Assembly: GCA_013822685.1 (NCBI GenBank)
Contig: PNKV01000011.1
Coordinates: 62,001 to 126,000, forward strand
Reading direction: 5' to 3'
Origin: Leptothrix sp. (in: b-proteobacteria)
GTDB lineage: Bacteria > Pseudomonadota > Gammaproteobacteria > Burkholderiales > Burkholderiaceae_C
DNA: 64,000 nt
The notes beneath the pieces were generated by a model. The model was given only the letters and a program-made list of their open reading frames with translations, ran no database searches and was not told the origin of the DNA. A program made the translations under genes and the position numbers. The number at the start of each line of letters is the position of its first letter. Position 1 is the stretch's first letter. This document shows positions 3,976 to 62,523 of this stretch, piece after piece.

Positions 3976-5685
3976 TTATCCCCCCGCCCGCAGGCGTGGC
4001 TCATCCACACCCGTGACGCGATTGAGCTGCATGAAAGTGGTGGGCCCTGCCACGCCGTCGGGCCTCAAGCCCTGGGCCTGCTGGAAAGCGGCCACCTTGG
4101 CCTTGAGGGCCGCGTCGTAGGTGCGTTTGTCGGCGGTCACGGGCTCGCCTTGCGCCATGGCCAGCCGCGTGGCCAGGTTGTCCACCAGCGGGCCCGCATT
4201 GCCATCCACGATGGATTGCAGATAGCCCGGAGGCGCGCGCCAGAAGGTCGCGAAATCACCGCGCCACACCTTCAGCAAAACACTGACCGGCACGGTCTTG
4301 GACACACCGGCCATGCTCAAGGTCGCGCTGTCGTTGTTCAGTGCGGTCAGCAAGGCATAGGTGGCGCGGCCGCTCTCGTCGTTCAGCGTGAGGATGCCGG
4401 GGCGGTCCAGCTGGCGGATCAGCCCCAGCCCGCGGCTGCTGCGAAAGCAATGCACCTGGGCCTGCTGGGCCTGGGCGCACGGGTCGCCCTCGGCCAGGGG
4501 CAGCTTCCACAATGCCGCCAACTCCAGCCAGGCTTTTCGCTCGTTGAACTGTTTGCTGCTGAACAGCGAGGCGATCTCTGAGCTGGCCTTCAGCACCGGC
4601 GCCGCCACCACGATGGGCGCAGAAGGCGCCACGGTGGGGGCCGCCTGGCTGGCAGCCGCCACCGTGGTGGCCGCCGCGCGAGACGCCGCCGCTGGCGCCG
4701 ATGCAGCCTGGGCCACCACCGGCTCCGCGTCGGGATGGGCGCGGTGCTGCCACCAGGCCACGCCGCCCATGCCCGCCAAGCCCAGCGCCGTCGTGCTGGC
4801 CACCAGGCCCCATCCCCAGGCCGGCATGCGCCCTGCCGCGGCGTGGGTGGGCGCCAGCACCCGGGTGATGTCGAACACTTCGCTGGCGGCCTTGTCCACG
4901 ATCTCGCGGTCAACGCGGCTTTTGCCCTCGGCATAGGCACCCAGCAAGGCGCGGTCGCACAGCAGGTTGATGCGCCGCGGGATGCCGCGCGACAACTGGT
5001 GCACGCGCTCCACGGCCTGGCTGTCGAACAGCTTGCCACGGGCCAAGCCGGCCACCGCCAAGCGGTGCCGGATGTACTGCGCCGTTTCGGCTTCCGACAA
5101 AGCATCCAGGTGGAAGCGCGCGATCACGCGTTGCGCCAGTTGCTCCAGCTCGGGCTGGGCCAGCATCGTGCGCAACTCGGGCTGGCCGATCAGGATGATC
5201 TGCAGCAACTTGCGCTCGCTGGTCTCCAGGTTGGTCAGCAGGCGCAATTGCTCCAGCACGTCGGGCGACAGGTTCTGTGCCTCGTCGATGATGAGCACGT
5301 TGTTCTGGCCAACCGCGTGGGTCTTGAGCAAAAATTCGTTGAGCGGGTCGAGGTAGTCCTTGACCGTTTCCACCCCCGGGCCCTGGTGCTGGTAAGGAAT
5401 GCGGAACTCGTCGCACACCGACTTGAGCAGCTCCTGCACCGTCAACTTGGGGTTGAAGATGTAGGCCACGTTGCAACGCCGGGGAATCTGCTCCAGGAAG
5501 CAGCGGCACACGGTGGTCTTGCCCGCGCCGATTTCACCCGTCAGCAGCACGAAACCGCCCCCACCGCCCACGCCATACAGCAGGTGGGCCAGCGCCTCGC
5601 GGTGCCGGTCGCTCATGAACAGGTAGCGCGGGTCAGGGGCGATCGAGAAGGGCTCGTGCTTCAGTCCGAAGAATTTGGCGTACAT
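3976..5685 (-). CDS. gspA: GspA/ExeA-type AAA ATPase with C-terminal peptidoglycan-binding domain
   Basis: MYAKFFGLKHEPFSIAPDPRYLFMSDRHREAL N-terminus, Walker A GEIGAGKTT, Walker B NVLIIDEAQNL, TM, C-terminal PG-binding-like repeat (FQQAQGLRPDGVAGPTTFMQLN). Confidence 0.9.
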   Translation of the reverse strand: MYAKFFGLKHEPFSIAPDPRYLFMSDRHREALAHLLYGVGGGGGFVLLTGEIGAGKTTVCRCFLEQIPRRCNVAYIFNPKLTVQELLKSVCDEFRIPYQHQGPGVETVKDYLDPLNEFLLKTHAVGQNNVLIIDEAQNLSPDVLEQLRLLTNLETSERKLLQIILIGQPELRTMLAQPELEQLAQRVIARFHLDALSEAETAQYIRHRLAVAGLARGKLFDSQAVERVHQLSRGIPRRINLLCDRALLGAYAEGKSRVDREIVDKAASEVFDITRVLAPTHAAAGRMPAWGWGLVASTTALGLAGMGGVAWWQHRAHPDAEPVVAQAASAPAAASRAAATTVAAASQAAPTVAPSAPIVVAAPVLKASSEIASLFSSKQFNERKAWLELAALWKLPLAEGDPCAQAQQAQVHCFRSSRGLGLIRQLDRPGILTLNDESGRATYALLTALNNDSATLSMAGVSKTVPVSVLLKVWRGDFATFWRAPPGYLQSIVDGNAGPLVDNLATRLAMAQGEPVTADKRTYDAALKAKVAAFQQAQGLRPDGVAGPTTFMQLNRVTGVDEPRLRAGG

Positions 5686-5739
5686 GCCCTAGAGAATACC
5701 TGCTGCGGGCAGGCCCGGGCGCCCACCCGGAACGAGCCC

Positions 5740-8700
5740 TCAGGCGGCGCTGCGCAACAGCCCGTCGATGGTGTTCAGCAACAGGTCTTCCGAGTAGGGT
5801 TTGGTCAGGAAGGCATTGACGCCCGCGTCACTGGCCAACTGGCGGTGCTTGTCGGTGAAACGCGAGGTGATCATCACCACCGGAGTGGCCTTGGTGGCGC
5901 TGCGGTTGCGCAGGGCATTGGTCAGCTCCAAGCCATTCATGCGGGGCATTTCCAGGTCAACCAGCACGATGTCCGGCGCGCGCAGTTGCACGGCGCCCAG
6001 GGCATCGACCCCATCGCGCGCGGTGACCACTTCGTAACCTGAGTCCTGCATCAGTTGCTCCATGGTGCGGCGCACGCTGACCGAATCGTCCACCACCAGG
6101 CACAGCGGCAGCTTGTGGCGCGAGGGCACCACCGCGTCGTCCACGCCCGGCATCTGGCCGGCGGTGAAATCGCGCAGCAGATCGGGCAGGTCGACCACCG
6201 TGGCCACCGACCCATCGCCCAGCACCGTGGCGCCGTCGATGCCCAGGGCGTGCGGCATCATGGGGTTGAAGGGTTTGACGACCACCGTGCGCGCGTCGCT
6301 CAACTCGGGCACGATGATGGCCAGGCGTTGGCGGAACTCGTCGCGCACGATCATGGCCACTTCCATCACCCCGGCTTGCTTGAGCGCCTCGTGCGGCAGG
6401 CCCATCAATTTTTCCAGGCGGATGGCGTTCAGTTGTTCGCCTTGCAGGGCATAGGTCAGGCCGCCCTGGGCATCGGTGCTCACTTCTTCGCGGGCGGGCA
6501 GGATCTGTTCAACACCGCGCACCGAGATGCCCAGCAGGTGGTGCTCGGAGCGGCTGAGCATGACCTGGATGGTGCTCATGCGCACCGGGAAGTGCAGGTT
6601 GAAGCGCGAGCCTTGGCCAGATTGCGAATCCATGTCGAGCGTGCCGCGCAGGTCCACCACGGCGCGCTGCACCACGTCCATGCCAATGCCTCGGCCCGAC
6701 AGCTGCGTGGTCTGCTCGCGGGTCGAGAAGCCGGGCAGCACGATCAGGCGCATCACCTGGGCATCAGACAGCGCCGCGTCTGGCGCGATCAAGCCGCGCG
6801 ACAGGGCACGGTGCCGGATGGCGCCCAGGTCCAGGCCACAACCATCGTCTTCGCAGCGCACGGCCACGTTGTTGCCTTCGGTGCTGAAGCTCAAGGTGAT
6901 GGTGCCGGTGGCGGGCTTGCCCAGCGTCTCGCGCACTTCGGGCGATTCGATGCCGTGGTCGACGGCGTTGCGCAGCAGGTGCATCAGCGGATCGATGATG
7001 CGGTCGAGCAACTGGGTGTCGACCATGGTGGCCTCGCCCTGGATGCGCAGGTCCACCGAGCGGTTGAGCACGCGGGCGGCCTGGCGCACCGTGCGTTGCA
7101 GGCGTGGCGAGATCGAGGCCACTTCGACCATGCGGGTGCGCTGGATGCTGCGCTGGATCTCCAGCTGCAGGCGTTCCTTCTCGGCCATCAGGTCGCGCAG
7201 GCCGGTCAGCTCACGCTCGAACGAGCGCGAGAACTCGCGGCTGTCGGCGCCCGACTCCACGATGCGGCGCGACAGCATGTGCAGTTCGTTGTACTGGTCC
7301 ATCTCCAGCGCGTCCAGCTCGCCAGTGTTGCCGCCCAGCATGGCCAGGCCGCGCACGTCTACCAGCTGCTCCAGCTCGGCCGAGAGCTGGCCGAACTGGC
7401 GTGAACCTGTGCGCAGCGCGTTGATGTTGTCGCTCAGGCGCGTGACGCGGTCCTGGATCTGCGAGGTGACGATGCTGTTCTCGCCGGCCAGCTTGAGCAG
7501 GGAATCGATGAGGGACGCGGGCACGCGCAGGTAGGTTTCGGCTTGCGTGTCGTCATCTGCAGAGGGTGTGCTGCCGGCAGCGGGCGCATCGAGCACGGTG
7601 GGCATCGGTGCCGTAATGGCCAGTGGCGTTGCAACACTGCTCAGAGAATCAGCGCTGTCGCCAAGGTCCTCCTGCTCCGAGGGCAAGCCATCGCGGTCGA
7701 TGCGGTTGGCCCAGTCCAAAACCTTCTGGTGGACTGCCAGACTTTCAGGCGGGGTGCCGGCATTGGCCACCAGCGCTTCGCTCATGGCCTCCAGGCAGTC
7801 GGACGCCTCCAGCAGCATGTCCACCAGTTCGCGCGTGGGCAGGCGCTCTTCGCGGCCAAAGGCCACCAGGATGTCTTCCAGCGCGTGGGTGAGGTGGGCG
7901 ACGCCCTTGATGCCCACGGTGTTGGCCGCGCCCTTGAGGGTGTGGGCCACACGGCGGGCCTGGTCCATGTCGTCCAGCGTGCCGCCTTGCGACAGGCGCT
8001 GCACCAGGGCCGAGAACTCTTGCGCATGCGGTGGCAGCTCGACCAGCAGGCTGTCCAGCACCTTGCGGTCGATGTCGGCCGGCACGCTCAGGTCCATGTG
8101 CTCGGGCAAGGCCTTGGCGGGGCGGTCTTGCGAAGGCCGCGCGCGCACCAGGCTCACCGAGGTCATCGCGCTGATCCACTCGGGCAAGCTGTCCGTGTCG
8201 GCCGGGTAAGGCCAGTCGGCGCCGGCCACGCACTCGGCCAAGGCTTGCGCGGCCACCGGCTCGCTGGGGTCTTGCAGGTGCGCCATGGCCAGGGTTGGCC
8301 AGGCTTGCAGCACCGCGCGGTGCTGGTCACTCAGCCCATCAGGTTCGGCTTGCAAGGCGGCGGTGTTGATCAGGATCACTTCCAGCACTTGCTGGAAGCC
8401 GGCCAGGCCCAACAGGTTGGCCGCGTTGACCAGGTTGTGCAATTGCTCCAGGTGGTTCTCGAACAGGCCATCGCGCTCGGCCGGCGCCAGGTCCGGGGCC
8501 ACCATGGTGGCCACATCGGCTTGCAGGGCAACCAGGGCATCGCTGAGCATGGCCAGCTCTTCCGCGGTCACGGCCGGGGCGGTTGCGGCTTGGGCTTCAC
8601 CAATGCCGATGTCGAAGATCGTGTCGGAGTCGACCTCGGCGCCCAGGTCATCGTCGTCTTCCAGCTCCGCCTCTTCCGCCATGAGCATGTCGGGTTCGGC

Positions 8701-58035: not shown

Positions 58036-58857
58036 ATGAGCATCGCACGCAAGTTCACATGGGCGCTGGCCGCCTGCCTCAGCATGGGTTCGGCCATTGC
58101 CGCCACAGCCACGGAATCCTTCGTATCCGGTACGGGCACGCTGGATTTCATGAGCAACGAGTTCCGCGCCCTGAGGCTGTTGGGCATCAGCACCACCTAT
58201 CAGCTCCCGGACGGGAACCCACTGCCGGTCAATGCGGCCCAGTACAGCCTCCTAACCAGGTCGGCCACGCTGACCTTTGATGGCGGGACCATTTCCGCCA
58301 TCGATGGCAAAGCATCGTTCAGCGCAGGGAATTCCCAGCTGGCGCTGCTGGCTGGGCGAGCTCAAGAAGACGAGTACGGCACGCCCGACTACGAATTGCC
58401 CCTGCTCATCAACCTGGTCGCGCTCCGGAACATCAGTTTCGATTTGAGCGATGCCTCCATCAGTGCCGACATCACCAGCTACACCGGTACAACCGATGCT
58501 CTCCACCTGGCGAGCAGCTTCGGCCGGCTTACGGTGTTCAAAGCCTTCACACCAATCACTGATGGCACACAGGGCCTGGTCATCGACGGACAGGTCAGCG
58601 GCAGCACCGCCAGTGGCCTGCGCTTGACCGACGAAGGAGCAGACATCGTGCTCACGGAGCTGTATGCGTGGTCTGGCCAGCCACTGGACAAGGAAGCGCC
58701 TTCTAGCTTGTACGTCTTGGGGAAGACGATGAGTTGGGGCGTCGCCAGCGCCACAGGAACGTTCAGCAGCTCTGTTGTGCCAGAAGCCTCCACCCTGTCG
58801 CTGATGCTGGTGGGCTTGTTGTCTATCACGGCCATCAGCCGCCGGTCATCCTGCTGA
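58036..58857 (+). CDS. PEP-CTERM sorting domain protein
   Basis: Signal peptide MSIARKFTWALAACLSMGSAIAATA; C-terminal [26 protein letters not shown]. Confidence 0.82.
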   Translation: MSIARKFTWALAACLSMGSAIAATATESFVSGTGTLDFMSNEFRALRLLGISTTYQLPDGNPLPVNAAQYSLLTRSATLTFDGGTISAIDGKASFSAGNSQLALLAGRAQEDEYGTPDYELPLLINLVALRNISFDLSDASISADITSYTGTTDALHLASSFGRLTVFKAFTPITDGTQGLVIDGQVSGSTASGLRLTDEGADIVLTELYAWSGQPLDKEAPSSLYVLGKTMSWGVASATGTFSSSVVPEASTLSLMLVGLLSITAISRRSSC

Positions 58858-59659
58858 GAAATCCCTCGTCAATCCAGCGGCGCAAGTAGCCACCGGCCAG
58901 GGCCGCGGCGTTCTCACCCTCGGGCAGCATCTCGGCCAGCAGGGCACAGGTCTCGGCGAAAGACTGGCCTTGCATCATGGCTTGCAAGGCCGCCACCTCG
59001 GTCGGCGGGGCGCTTCTGAAATGCGGCCGCTCTTCAAAGCGCCACACCAGCACCGCCATCGGTGAGGGCAAGGCATCCACCGGCGGCACCTCGAGCTCCT
59101 GGTCCAGCGCATGCCACAGGCTCAAGGTGTTGCAGCGTAGGCTGATCAGGGCCAAGGTGGGGTGCGGCTTGAACACCACCGTGGCCCAGTCTTCAGGCGC
59201 CATCGCCGCCACATCGGCCATGGCCAACACAGGCGCATCCGGGCCGTCAAAGGCGGCGCGCATGGTCCAGTCCAGGCGGGCGATCTCGGCCACCTCGGGG
59301 TGGTCACCCAGGTCGCTGTCCGCACTCAAGCGCTGTGCCAGCCAATCGGGGTAGGTGGCACCATACCAGCGCAAGTTGGCGGAGGCAGAAGGGTTCGCTT
59401 CGATGTACTCGGCCGACAAGGCATCGAACCATTCATCGCCCAAGTACAGCAAGGTGTGTCCAAAGCTGTCGCTCAAGGTCTCTTGCAAACGCGCTCGGTA
59501 GGCATGGTGGTAGATGCCCAGGCCTCGGGCACCGCTGCCCGGGATCACGCTGACCACATCGGCCAAAGCGGCTGCATCGCTCGCCAGCACATGGCCTTGC
59601 AAGCGCGACTGCAAGGCTTCCAGCGAAGATGCGGTTGATTCCACCGGCATCGTCATCAC
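58835..59659 (-). CDS. DUF2063 family protein, MNIO partner (BufC-like)
   Basis: [24 protein letters not shown]...[61 protein letters not shown]; coupled (ATGA) to the DUF692 gene. Confidence 0.88.
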
Positions 59660-60510
59660 GCAGCCTGCCTTTCGAGCACAGAGGCGGCCACGCGACGCGC
59701 CTGGTCCAGCTCGGCGATCAGCTCGTGCAAAGGCGGGATGTGGTCATCACGCTCGATCATCGTGGCGACGTGGCCGAATCGCTCGCAGGCATGTGCATAC
59801 AAGGCCCACACCGAGTCGGCCACCGGGTGGTCGTGCGTGTCGATGATGTGGTCGCCATGGTCGGTGTGGCCCGCCAGGTGGATCTGCTGCACGCGGCCGA
59901 CGGGGATGTGGTTGATGAAATCTTGGGCATCAAAGCCATGGTTCACGCTGCTGACGTGGATGTTGTTCACATCGAGCAGCAGCAGGCAATCGGCCTCGTC
60001 GCACAGGCGGGCGATGAAGTCCCACTCAGTCATGTGCGAGCTTTGGAATTGGACATAGCTGGACACGTTCTCCAGCACCAGGCGCCGGCCTAACGCGTCT
60101 TGCACGTGGCGCACATTGCGCACCACCAGGGCCAGTGCTTCGTCGGTGTAGGGCAAGGGCATGAGGTCGTGCAACTGGCGGCCATGCACGCCGGTCCAGC
60201 AAAGGTGGTCGGACACCCAGAGGGGATCGACACGTTGTACCAAGGCGGCCAGCTTCTTCAGGTAGCTTGCATCAGGGCCGGCCACCGAGCCGATGGACAG
60301 CGAGACGCCGTGCATGGCCATGGGGTAGCGCTCACGCAGAGAGTCGAGCATGCGCAGCGGCTTGCCGCCGGGCACCATGTAGTTCTCGGAAATGATCTCC
60401 AGCCAATCCACCGCTTGGGGCTGGGCCAGGAAGTCGGGGTAATGCACGGTGCGCAGCCCCAGCCCGAAACCGGGCGAGGGCCGCGTCAGCACGGCAGGCC
60501 GCGTGCTCAT
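59656..60510 (-). CDS. DUF692 multinuclear non-heme iron oxidase, MNIO (BufB-like)
   Basis: [104 protein letters not shown]. Start set at 60510. Confidence 0.93.
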
Positions 60511-60518
60511 GCGCCTGC

Positions 60519-60812
60519 TTACTTGGCGGCGCCCAAGTCGCCAATGGTGCCGCCCTTGCTCAGGCAGGCCTTGGCGTCCATGGCTTTGAAGCCGTGGCCC
60601 TTGCAGGCGTTCTGGCCCTTGCAAGCGCTTTCAGTGGTCTTGCAATCACTGTTGCCCTTGCACGAGTGCACGCCGTAGCAATGCACTTTGTCGCTGGCGG
60701 CCACGGCCGAGCCCATGCTGCCGGCGGGTGCTTCGGCGGCAAAGGCGGCGCCCGACATGGCGATCATGGCGGCGGCCAGGGCCAGGGAAGAAGAGTTCGT
60801 GCGTTGGGTCAT
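60519..60812 (-). CDS. bufA: Bufferin-like Cys-rich secreted precursor peptide (MNIO substrate)
   Basis: Sec signal [29 protein letters not shown] then [45 protein letters not shown] (6 Cys); ends 8 nt before the MNIO start. Confidence 0.88.
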
Positions 60813-60931
60813 GGTGGTTCTCCGATGGGGTCAAAAAATGGATTTGTGAACAAGGCCCGAATGCCGGTTTGCATTCGGGACAAGGGTGTAGTCGGGCACA
60901 CCCGCCACTTCTTACAGCCCCAACGCCAAAA

Positions 60932-61456
60932 TCAAGCTTGGCGCCTGCGCACCACCACGCCAGCCACACCTACACCGGCCAGGAGCAGCAAGACCGATTC
61001 GGGTTCGGGCACGGCGGGCGTGGCATAGATCGCCCCGTTGTAGCGGCCGGCCCCGCTCCCAAAAGGACTGCCCAACTGCAATCGGTAGTGCCCTGTTTCC
61101 AAACCTTTGAATTGGAAGTTGTACCCCGTCCCCGACCCCACGAGCTCGGTGAACGGTGGGAGGGGTTTGGCGCCCTCACCAACCGCGGCCGGGAATAACA
61201 CCGGCAAGGGCCCCAACCATTCAAGGGTGACGTACCGGAAAGTGGCCACCCCGTTCTCGAACTTCAATGCGCCAGTCAGGTCACTTCGCTGGGCCAGGAA
61301 GAAATCCCGGGCCTGAATCGTTTCCTGTGAGTCAACGGCAAATTGGGCCGGAAATTCGGTCAGGAGACCAAGGTGGCTCACTGACGGCTCAACCGCCTGA
61401 GCCAAGCCGCTGAGCGCCAGGGCTGCGGTGGCCAACAAAGTTTTGCTCGTGTTCAT
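60932..61456 (-). CDS. PEP-CTERM sorting domain protein
   Basis: Signal peptide MNTSKTLLATAALALSGLAQAVE; C-terminal VPEPESVLLLLAGVGVAGVVVRRRQA. Confidence 0.88.
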   Translation of the reverse strand: MNTSKTLLATAALALSGLAQAVEPSVSHLGLLTEFPAQFAVDSQETIQARDFFLAQRSDLTGALKFENGVATFRYVTLEWLGPLPVLFPAAVGEGAKPLPPFTELVGSGTGYNFQFKGLETGHYRLQLGSPFGSGAGRYNGAIYATPAVPEPESVLLLLAGVGVAGVVVRRRQA

Positions 61457-61677
61457 CTGAAATTCCTCCGTGATTTGAAAAAAGCGCCTTGAACGACAGC
61501 GCCCTTGAAATGTGATTTTTTTCCATTTGCAAATCAAACCCGAAATGCAAGCAAATGAACCCCGGCTTCAAGCTCCACCGAGGCAAGCCCGCCAAGCACG
61601 CTTTCGTTTTGTTGCAAAAATATGGGAAAAATTCACTTTTATAATCAAGTCACACCACAGCTGGACCTTGGGCCCCG

Positions 61678-62523
61678 ATGTCCGACGAAGCACTCGACCA
61701 CACCGACCTGCTGAACGCCTTCAGCGCCCTGCTCGCCCCGATGGCCCGTCTGGCGGTTTCGCAGGGCTTGCCGTTTCCCGCCGTGGAGGCCCTTTTGAAG
61801 CGTTCGTTCGTGGATGCCGCCCGCCAGGCTTTGGTAGAGGCCGGCCTGCCCGAGCACAGGCTGGTCAGCCGCATCAGCACCAGCACCGGCATCTACCGCC
61901 GCGAGGTCTCCAGGCTGACGCAGGCCAACCCCACGGAAGAAGCGGCCCGCCCGGCGTCCCGATCGCTCGCCTCCGAGGTTCTGGCGCAATGGCTCACTGA
62001 CCCCCAGTACAGGGCTGCCAGCGGTGGATTCAGCCCGTTGAGGCGCCAGGGGCCGGCGCCCAGCTTCGAATCGCTGGCCCGGTCGGTGACCCAGGATGTG
62101 CATCCCCGCAGCGTGCTCGAAGAGCTGTGCCGCCTCGGCATGGCCGAAGTCGATGGCGAAGAAGACAGCGTCCGTTTGCTGCGAGCCTCATTCGTGCCGC
62201 GCGGGGACCAGGCCCAGATGCTGTCCTTCCTCGCGGACAACCTGGGCGACCACCTCAGCGGCGCGGTGCACAACGTGATGGGGAACCAGGCGCCCCGCCA
62301 ACATTTCGACCAGGCCGTCTTTGCCGACGAGCTGTCCCAGGAATCCCTGGAAGTGGTCCGAACCTTCGTCTCGGGCCAGTGGCAGCGCTTGCTGAACGAG
62401 GCCGTGCCGCTGCTCGAACAACGCCTAGCCGATGACCAGGCCGCCGCGCGCCGACGGGACCGCCGTGTGCGCATCGGCTTGTACAGCTACGACGACCTCA
62501 TGCGAGAGCATCATGATGACTAA
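61678..62523 (+). CDS. DUF6502-like protein
   Basis: LLNAFSALLAPMARLAVSQGLPFPAVEALLKRSFVDAARQAL...STSTGIYRREVSRLTQ. Confidence 0.75.
   Translation: MSDEALDHTDLLNAFSALLAPMARLAVSQGLPFPAVEALLKRSFVDAARQALVEAGLPEHRLVSRISTSTGIYRREVSRLTQANPTEEAARPASRSLASEVLAQWLTDPQYRAASGGFSPLRRQGPAPSFESLARSVTQDVHPRSVLEELCRLGMAEVDGEEDSVRLLRASFVPRGDQAQMLSFLADNLGDHLSGAVHNVMGNQAPRQHFDQAVFADELSQESLEVVRTFVSGQWQRLLNEAVPLLEQRLADDQAAARRRDRRVRIGLYSYDDLMREHHDD

Follow-up and report, generated by a model that had tools for sequence, protein, structure and literature searches.

The window, the 64,000-nucleotide stretch of DNA analysed here, very probably comes from a betaproteobacterium resembling Aquabacterium and carries a bufferin operon of the BufA2 class, whose product would chelate copper and whose transcription would depend on an ECF sigma factor encoded in trans. 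The operon itself is one more BufA2 example; what is new is a conserved stress promoter common to bufA2BC, doxX and msrPQ. The same -35/-10 motif precedes the buf operon, doxX and msrP in a genome that also encodes a sigma/anti-sigma pair, and joint induction of bufA2BC, doxX and msrPQ by the trans-encoded ECF sigma factor is predicted on this basis.

Assignment of the locus as a BufA2 operon is virtually certain. The original prediction had described three packed same-strand genes, encoding a secreted six-Cys peptide of 97 aa, a DUF692 enzyme beginning 8 nt downstream and a DUF2063 protein overlapping the enzyme gene by ATGA, and nearly all of this was recovered (Table 1). The bufB ATG lies 8 nt past the bufA2 stop, and bufC does overlap bufB, although by a different sequence: the junction reads GTGATGA, giving an overlap of GTGA if bufC starts at the GTG (59659) or of one base if it starts at the ATG (59656). 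A 4-nt overlap occurs in many relatives. The neighbouring genes (one PEP-CTERM, one PEP-CTERM-like and one DUF6502) are unrelated to bufA2BC; PEP-CTERM-type secreted proteins are encoded on both sides of the operon.

Table 1. Positions of the operon, its upstream elements, its flanking genes and related features elsewhere in the genome (window coordinates unless a locus is named).
Feature	Position	Strand	Remarks
bufA2-bufB-bufC operon	58835-60812	-	all three genes on one strand
bufA2, precursor	60519..60812	-	97 aa, six Cys; matches BufA2 NCBIfam model
Predicted Sec signal peptide	60738..60812	-	residues 1-25, ending ...SGAAFA; read by eye; lipobox Cys absent
Six-Cys core, C45-C83	60564..60680	-	spacing of the six Cys kept in relatives
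bufB, MNIO (DUF692) maturase	59656..60510	-	ERDDHIP motif; PF05114 and NF050167
bufC, DUF2063 partner, PME type 1	58835..59659	-	PF09836
Predicted ECF-sigma promoter TGTAAG-N16-CGAC	60891..60916	-	starts 104 nt upstream of bufA2 start
Promoter -35 element	60911-60916	-	
Promoter -10, CGACTAC	60888-60894	-	
Nine-pair hairpin CCCGAATGC-N6-GCATTCGGG	60856..60879	-	predicted fold, near predicted 5' end of bufA2 transcript
PEP-CTERM protein	60932-61459	-	upstream flank of operon
PEP-CTERM-like protein	58036-58857	+	converges on operon from other side; no model cut-off passed
DUF6502 protein	61678-62523	+	near operon
doxX promoter motif	L130:8248-8273		doxX ATG at 8302
Separate Buf1 operon (DUF2282, MNIO, DUF2063)	L122:10239-12368		contig C12

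The original prediction had proposed profile searches against the BufA1/BufA2, DUF692 and DUF2063 families, and in these all three proteins scored above the BufA2, BufB and DUF2063 cut-offs. The precursor scored 104.8 bits against NF050166 (Cu_RiPP_BufA2; cut-off 60) and gave no match to PF10048 (DUF2282), which places it outside Buf1; it has no EGKCG repeats, which places it outside the HvfA/oxazolin group. The earlier guess of a BufA2-type rather than a plain DUF2282 peptide was thus correct, and the only DUF2282 precursor of the genome belongs to the separate Buf1 operon. The cysteines of the window precursor stand at residues 45, 51, 57, 64, 70 and 83 (HCYG, SCKG, DCKT, ACKG, ACKG and ACLS), and by eye the N-terminus shows a basic start, a hydrophobic stretch and an AFA cleavage site. 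The MNIO/DUF692 identity of the second gene product, on which the original prediction had staked its reading, was upheld at 375.9 bits against PF05114 and 386 bits against NF050167 (MNIO_BufB; cut-off 310), whereas the HvfB model reached 274.8 bits, under its cut-off of 360. BufB shares the motifs HG, SDH, EN, LDVNN, HxAGH, DTH and ERD with the solved DUF692 structure 3BWW. BufC scored 62.5 bits against PF09836 (DUF2063; cut-off 27.2) and 26.2 bits against the HvfC model NF050145, under the cut-off of 142; it matched no PDB sequence at 0.001. Its C-terminal half is presumed to be RRE-like, and this half matched no model in the profile search. The arrangement is not due to chance, given that BufA2 and BufB pass curated NCBIfam cut-offs, BufC passes the Pfam DUF2063 cut-off and most of the 80 related loci show the same gene order.

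Operons of this kind are common. BufA2 was found above the cut-off in 52 of 301 genomes sampled from the same family, and when 80 related BufB loci were taken from public genomes, a BufA2-like ORF was present in 76 and BufC in all, with gene order kept in most and the six-Cys core conserved across relatives. Aquabacterium supplies the closest BufB proteins, at 78-80% identity. A published survey counts thousands of Buf1 and Buf2 precursors, with Buf2 mostly six-Cys (PMC12452194, in excerpt). Because BufA2BC is widespread in the genome sample, the loci and the survey alike, the window operon is an ordinary member of the known bufferin family. It resembles the Buf2 clusters (Buf_6/12Cys; BufA2BC) of Antoine et al. 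(2025; PMC12452194, in excerpt) in its six-Cys precursor with a predicted Sec signal, in the order of MNIO and DUF2063 genes and in the absence of a sigma gene. It differs from them in the absence of DoxX, in the conserved promoter of ECF type and in the candidate sigma factor encoded in trans, for which the available portion of that survey contains no description.

Several variants were seen among the relatives. BufB and BufC are fused in a single ORF of ~540-615 aa in 12 of the 80 loci, from Acidovorax and others (L061, L064, L065, L075-L081, L095 and L111; for example L081:5968-7635, in which NGO1945_C was recognised). These fusions support a 1:1 complex of enzyme and partner; the available portions of the surveys make no mention of a natural MNIO-DUF2063 fusion. 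The gene 3' of bufC resembles a cysteine/cystathionine beta-synthase-type protein (NVLEMIGNTPLMA...) in L055, L056, L083, L084, L085 and L093, a neighbour that recurs in MAGs of Steroidobacteraceae and other Gammaproteobacteria. BufA2-like genes on the opposite strand from the MNIO operon occur in L112 (5482-5733) and in L086, with one on each side of the operon (5414-5821 and 7639-8034). Sphingomonads carry BufA2-like precursors with an eight-Cys core (L063:5638-5946, L068:5623-5931 and L074:3283-3591), which in L063 and L074 stand in tandem with a six-Cys precursor.

The chemistry of the peptide can be approached through its enzyme. MNIOs acting on Lys-Cys substrates have Phe at the position of FonB residue 250, whereas those acting on Cys-Lys substrates (BufA2/BufB2) have Asp (PMC13097082, in excerpt). 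The corresponding motif reads ERD-D-HIP in the window BufB and ERDD in most relatives, against EWD-T-DLP in the MNIO of the genome's own Buf1 operon; judged by the ERD motif, the window enzyme would carry the Asp signature at the site equivalent to FonB Phe250. The captophorins fontiphorin, oxazolin and gonophorin likewise depend on an MNIO with a PME1 partner, and their 5-thiooxazoles are associated with Cu; they differ in that their repeats are of the Lys-Cys type (EGKCG) and their specificity site holds Phe, where the window system has Cys-Lys and Asp (PMC13097082, in excerpt). By analogy with such systems, it is very likely that at least two cysteines of BufA2 become thiooxazoles. A product other than 5-thiooxazole (e.g., an oxazolone-thioamide), or modification of the central Cys alone with the outer ones in disulphides, is unlikely: the isomers are hard to distinguish, oxazolin having initially been assigned an oxazolone-thioamide, and Buf1 is modified on its central cysteines only (PMC13097082, PMC12452194; both in excerpt), but 5-thiooxazole is now broadly assigned to PME1-dependent MNIOs (PMC13097082, in excerpt).

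Copper buffering by BufA2 is likely on the same analogy. The peptide could bind mainly Zn, Cd, Au, Ag or Hg, or act through unmodified thiols as in metallothionein, and Buf/MerC fusions and gold-induced gig operons are known (PMC12452194, in excerpt), as is a response of Caulobacter SigF to Cr and Cd (PMC3511200). This is nonetheless very improbable, given that BufA2 is inherited together with the genes for BufB and BufC and that copper is bound by characterised bufferins and captophorins, which contain thiooxazoles derived from Cys (PMC12452194, PMC13097082; both in excerpt).

Alignment of the bufA2 upstream region with those of Aquabacterium relatives revealed a conserved block, TGTAAG-N16-CGACTAC, a longer form that occurs once in the genome. 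Across 112 BufA2 upstream regions of 480 nt each, TGTAAG-Nx-CGAC was present in 43, with x=16 in 33 and x=17 in 10; as these sequences are related by descent, the 43 are not independent events. Effects of base composition are controlled for by comparing one spacer length with another, and the same motif at each other spacer (x=8-15 and 18-27) was found in 0-2 of the 112 regions. Mononucleotide shuffles of the regions gave a mean of 0.07 regions with the motif. The bases between the -35 and -10 elements are near random across the motif-bearing regions, and over 2.1 Mb of loci the matches with spacers of 16 or 17 lie almost all before bufA2, on the bufA2 strand. From these patterns it is very likely that TGTAAG-N16-CGAC is a promoter of the ECF type. 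Control by the motif is not universal, since many more distant BufA2 operons (Gammaproteobacteria and Acidovorax-type fusions) have no strict match.

The leader downstream of this promoter contains a hairpin (Table 1) with a z of -4.7 in the window. Over 44 sequences the mean z was -1.4 and 20 were below -1.5, a weak tendency, and a conserved 5'-leader hairpin is therefore not claimed. A stem also stands at this leader position in L036 and L035, though its sequence differs, and Rfam gave no match near the operon.

The genome of 4.2 Mb has seven matches to TGTAAG-N16/17-CGAC and six to a reversed control pattern; the number of matches by itself therefore carries no significance, and the weight lies in where they fall. 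Three of the seven are intergenic and correctly oriented, before bufA2, doxX and msrP. The other four are inside genes and were taken as chance, which puts the short motif alone at about one chance hit per Mb; those on contigs C4, C21 and C22 lie within long ORFs. A match inside the ECF sigma gene (C9:75701) was considered as a site of autoregulation and rejected as it is within coding sequence; copies on the sigma strand recur at one place within the sigma gene in twelve related loci (L138-L149), and this match is probably a coding coincidence. The motif before msrP is separated from the msrP ATG by 37 nt, and the msrPQ genes were identified by profile search (MsrP 489.9 bits, MsrQ 162.5 bits).

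Directly upstream of the doxX motif on contig C9 are an ECF sigma gene, assigned to TIGR02943 at 238.5 bits (cut-off 162.2), and a gene for a 68-aa zf-HC2 anti-sigma factor (antisigmaE 64.6 bits, cut-off 50), which overlaps the sigma gene by ATGA. This sigma factor would probably act on the bufA2 promoter, as predicted from these arrangements. The original prediction had remarked that no DoxX-like gene adjoins the operon, which agrees with the finding that the single doxX of the genome is on C9, apart from both buf operons and under the same promoter motif. DoxX scored 56.8 bits against HvfX, of the Cu-binding-RiPP maturation family, below the cut-off of 80. By profile search the genome encodes a single BufA2 and a single DUF2282 (Buf1) precursor, together with two MNIOs, two proteins of the DUF2063 family and one DoxX. 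Its Buf1 operon on C12 has no adjoining DoxX or sigma gene, and the TGTAAG motif was absent upstream of it, a point against the proposed regulon.

Two characterised systems come close to this arrangement. The Buf1 operon gigPABT-rpoQ-rsqA of Cupriavidus metallidurans is alike in its precursor-MNIO-DUF2063 set, in DoxX and in the link to an ECF sigma/anti-sigma pair, and is copper induced; it differs in its four-Cys Buf1-type precursor, GigP, and in that the sigma gene adjoins the operon (PMC10304878, PMC7563307). In Caulobacter, the ECF sigma factor SigF, with NrsF, controls two MNIO/DUF2063 operons (one of them in trans), doxX and yedY/msrP, the same functional content as the predicted regulon (PMC3511200). 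Both Caulobacter operons are of the DUF2282 (Buf1) type, however, and the anti-sigma factor NrsF is a DUF1109 protein, against zf-HC2 in the window genome.

The same operon could be transcribed from a housekeeping promoter or under a copper two-component system, with TGTAAG-N16-CGAC used by another sigma factor or bound by some other factor. Control of the Cupriavidus gig operon by RpoQ is stated in one paper, but another finds no direct evidence that RpoQ initiates gig transcription (PMC10304878), which lends this alternative some weight. It is quite improbable all the same: the spacer is fixed at 16/17 with variable sequence, the -35/-10 geometry is that of the SigF consensus GTAACC-N16-CGAA with different letters, the motif before doxX lies directly behind the sigma/anti-sigma genes, and a sigma-70 promoter scan of the bufA2 upstream region found no site.

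Comparison with other genomes is consistent with control by the ECF sigma factor. In one congener (G160) the motif precedes bufA2, doxX and msrP. In a second (G034) it precedes bufA2 and msrP; counting against the proposal, bufA2 and the sigma/anti-sigma pair are present there with no motif-linked doxX beside the pair. A third (G242) has no BufA2 and a sigma factor of just 41% identity, and the motif precedes none of bufA2, doxX and msrP. In twelve relatives (L138-L149) the gene that best matches the sigma factor is paired with an anti-sigma gene, and the pair is divergent from a Buf1 operon whose bufA1 is preceded by the same motif; eleven of these genomes also have it before bufA2. Hence the sigma switch known from beside Buf1 seems to act in trans on Buf2 operons as well, and in the genus of the window it seems to be located with doxX. 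According to the survey, sigma/anti-sigma genes occur in Buf1 but not Buf2 clusters (PMC12452194, in excerpt), and a sigma factor encoded in trans reconciles these sigma-free clusters with the present findings. It is reasonably probable that in many betaproteobacteria Buf2 is controlled in trans by an ECF sigma factor and its zf-HC2 anti-sigma factor, a pair resembling RpoQ/SigF, and that in Aquabacterium the pair is found with doxX rather than Buf1 and brings the bufferin, DoxX and the repair of periplasmic methionine sulfoxide by MsrPQ into one regulon.

In the proposed mechanism, BufA2 would be synthesised with a Sec signal peptide, and BufB (MNIO) with BufC (DUF2063) would oxidise some cysteines in CKG/CKT contexts to 5-thiooxazoles in the cytoplasm. 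The modified peptide would then be exported by Sec and chelate excess periplasmic copper. Transcription of bufA2BC would start from the TGTAAG-N16-CGAC promoter by means of the sigma factor encoded elsewhere, beside doxX and with its zf-HC2 anti-sigma factor, which would also drive doxX and msrPQ. Periplasmic or thiol stress may free this sigma factor from the anti-sigma factor and so turn on bufA2BC, doxX and msrPQ together, as a small periplasmic copper/oxidative-stress regulon. We infer modification, export and copper chelation from characterised relatives (PMC12452194, PMC13097082; both in excerpt), and the sigma dependence and inducer of bufA2BC from the sequences compared here. The predicted promoter would define exactly the -35/-10 elements through which betaproteobacteria induce bufferins, and it suggests that bufferin expression answers periplasmic thiol/methionine oxidation besides copper load. 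It would also explain how a Buf2 operon with neither DoxX nor sigma gene of its own is co-expressed with doxX and the sigma factor.
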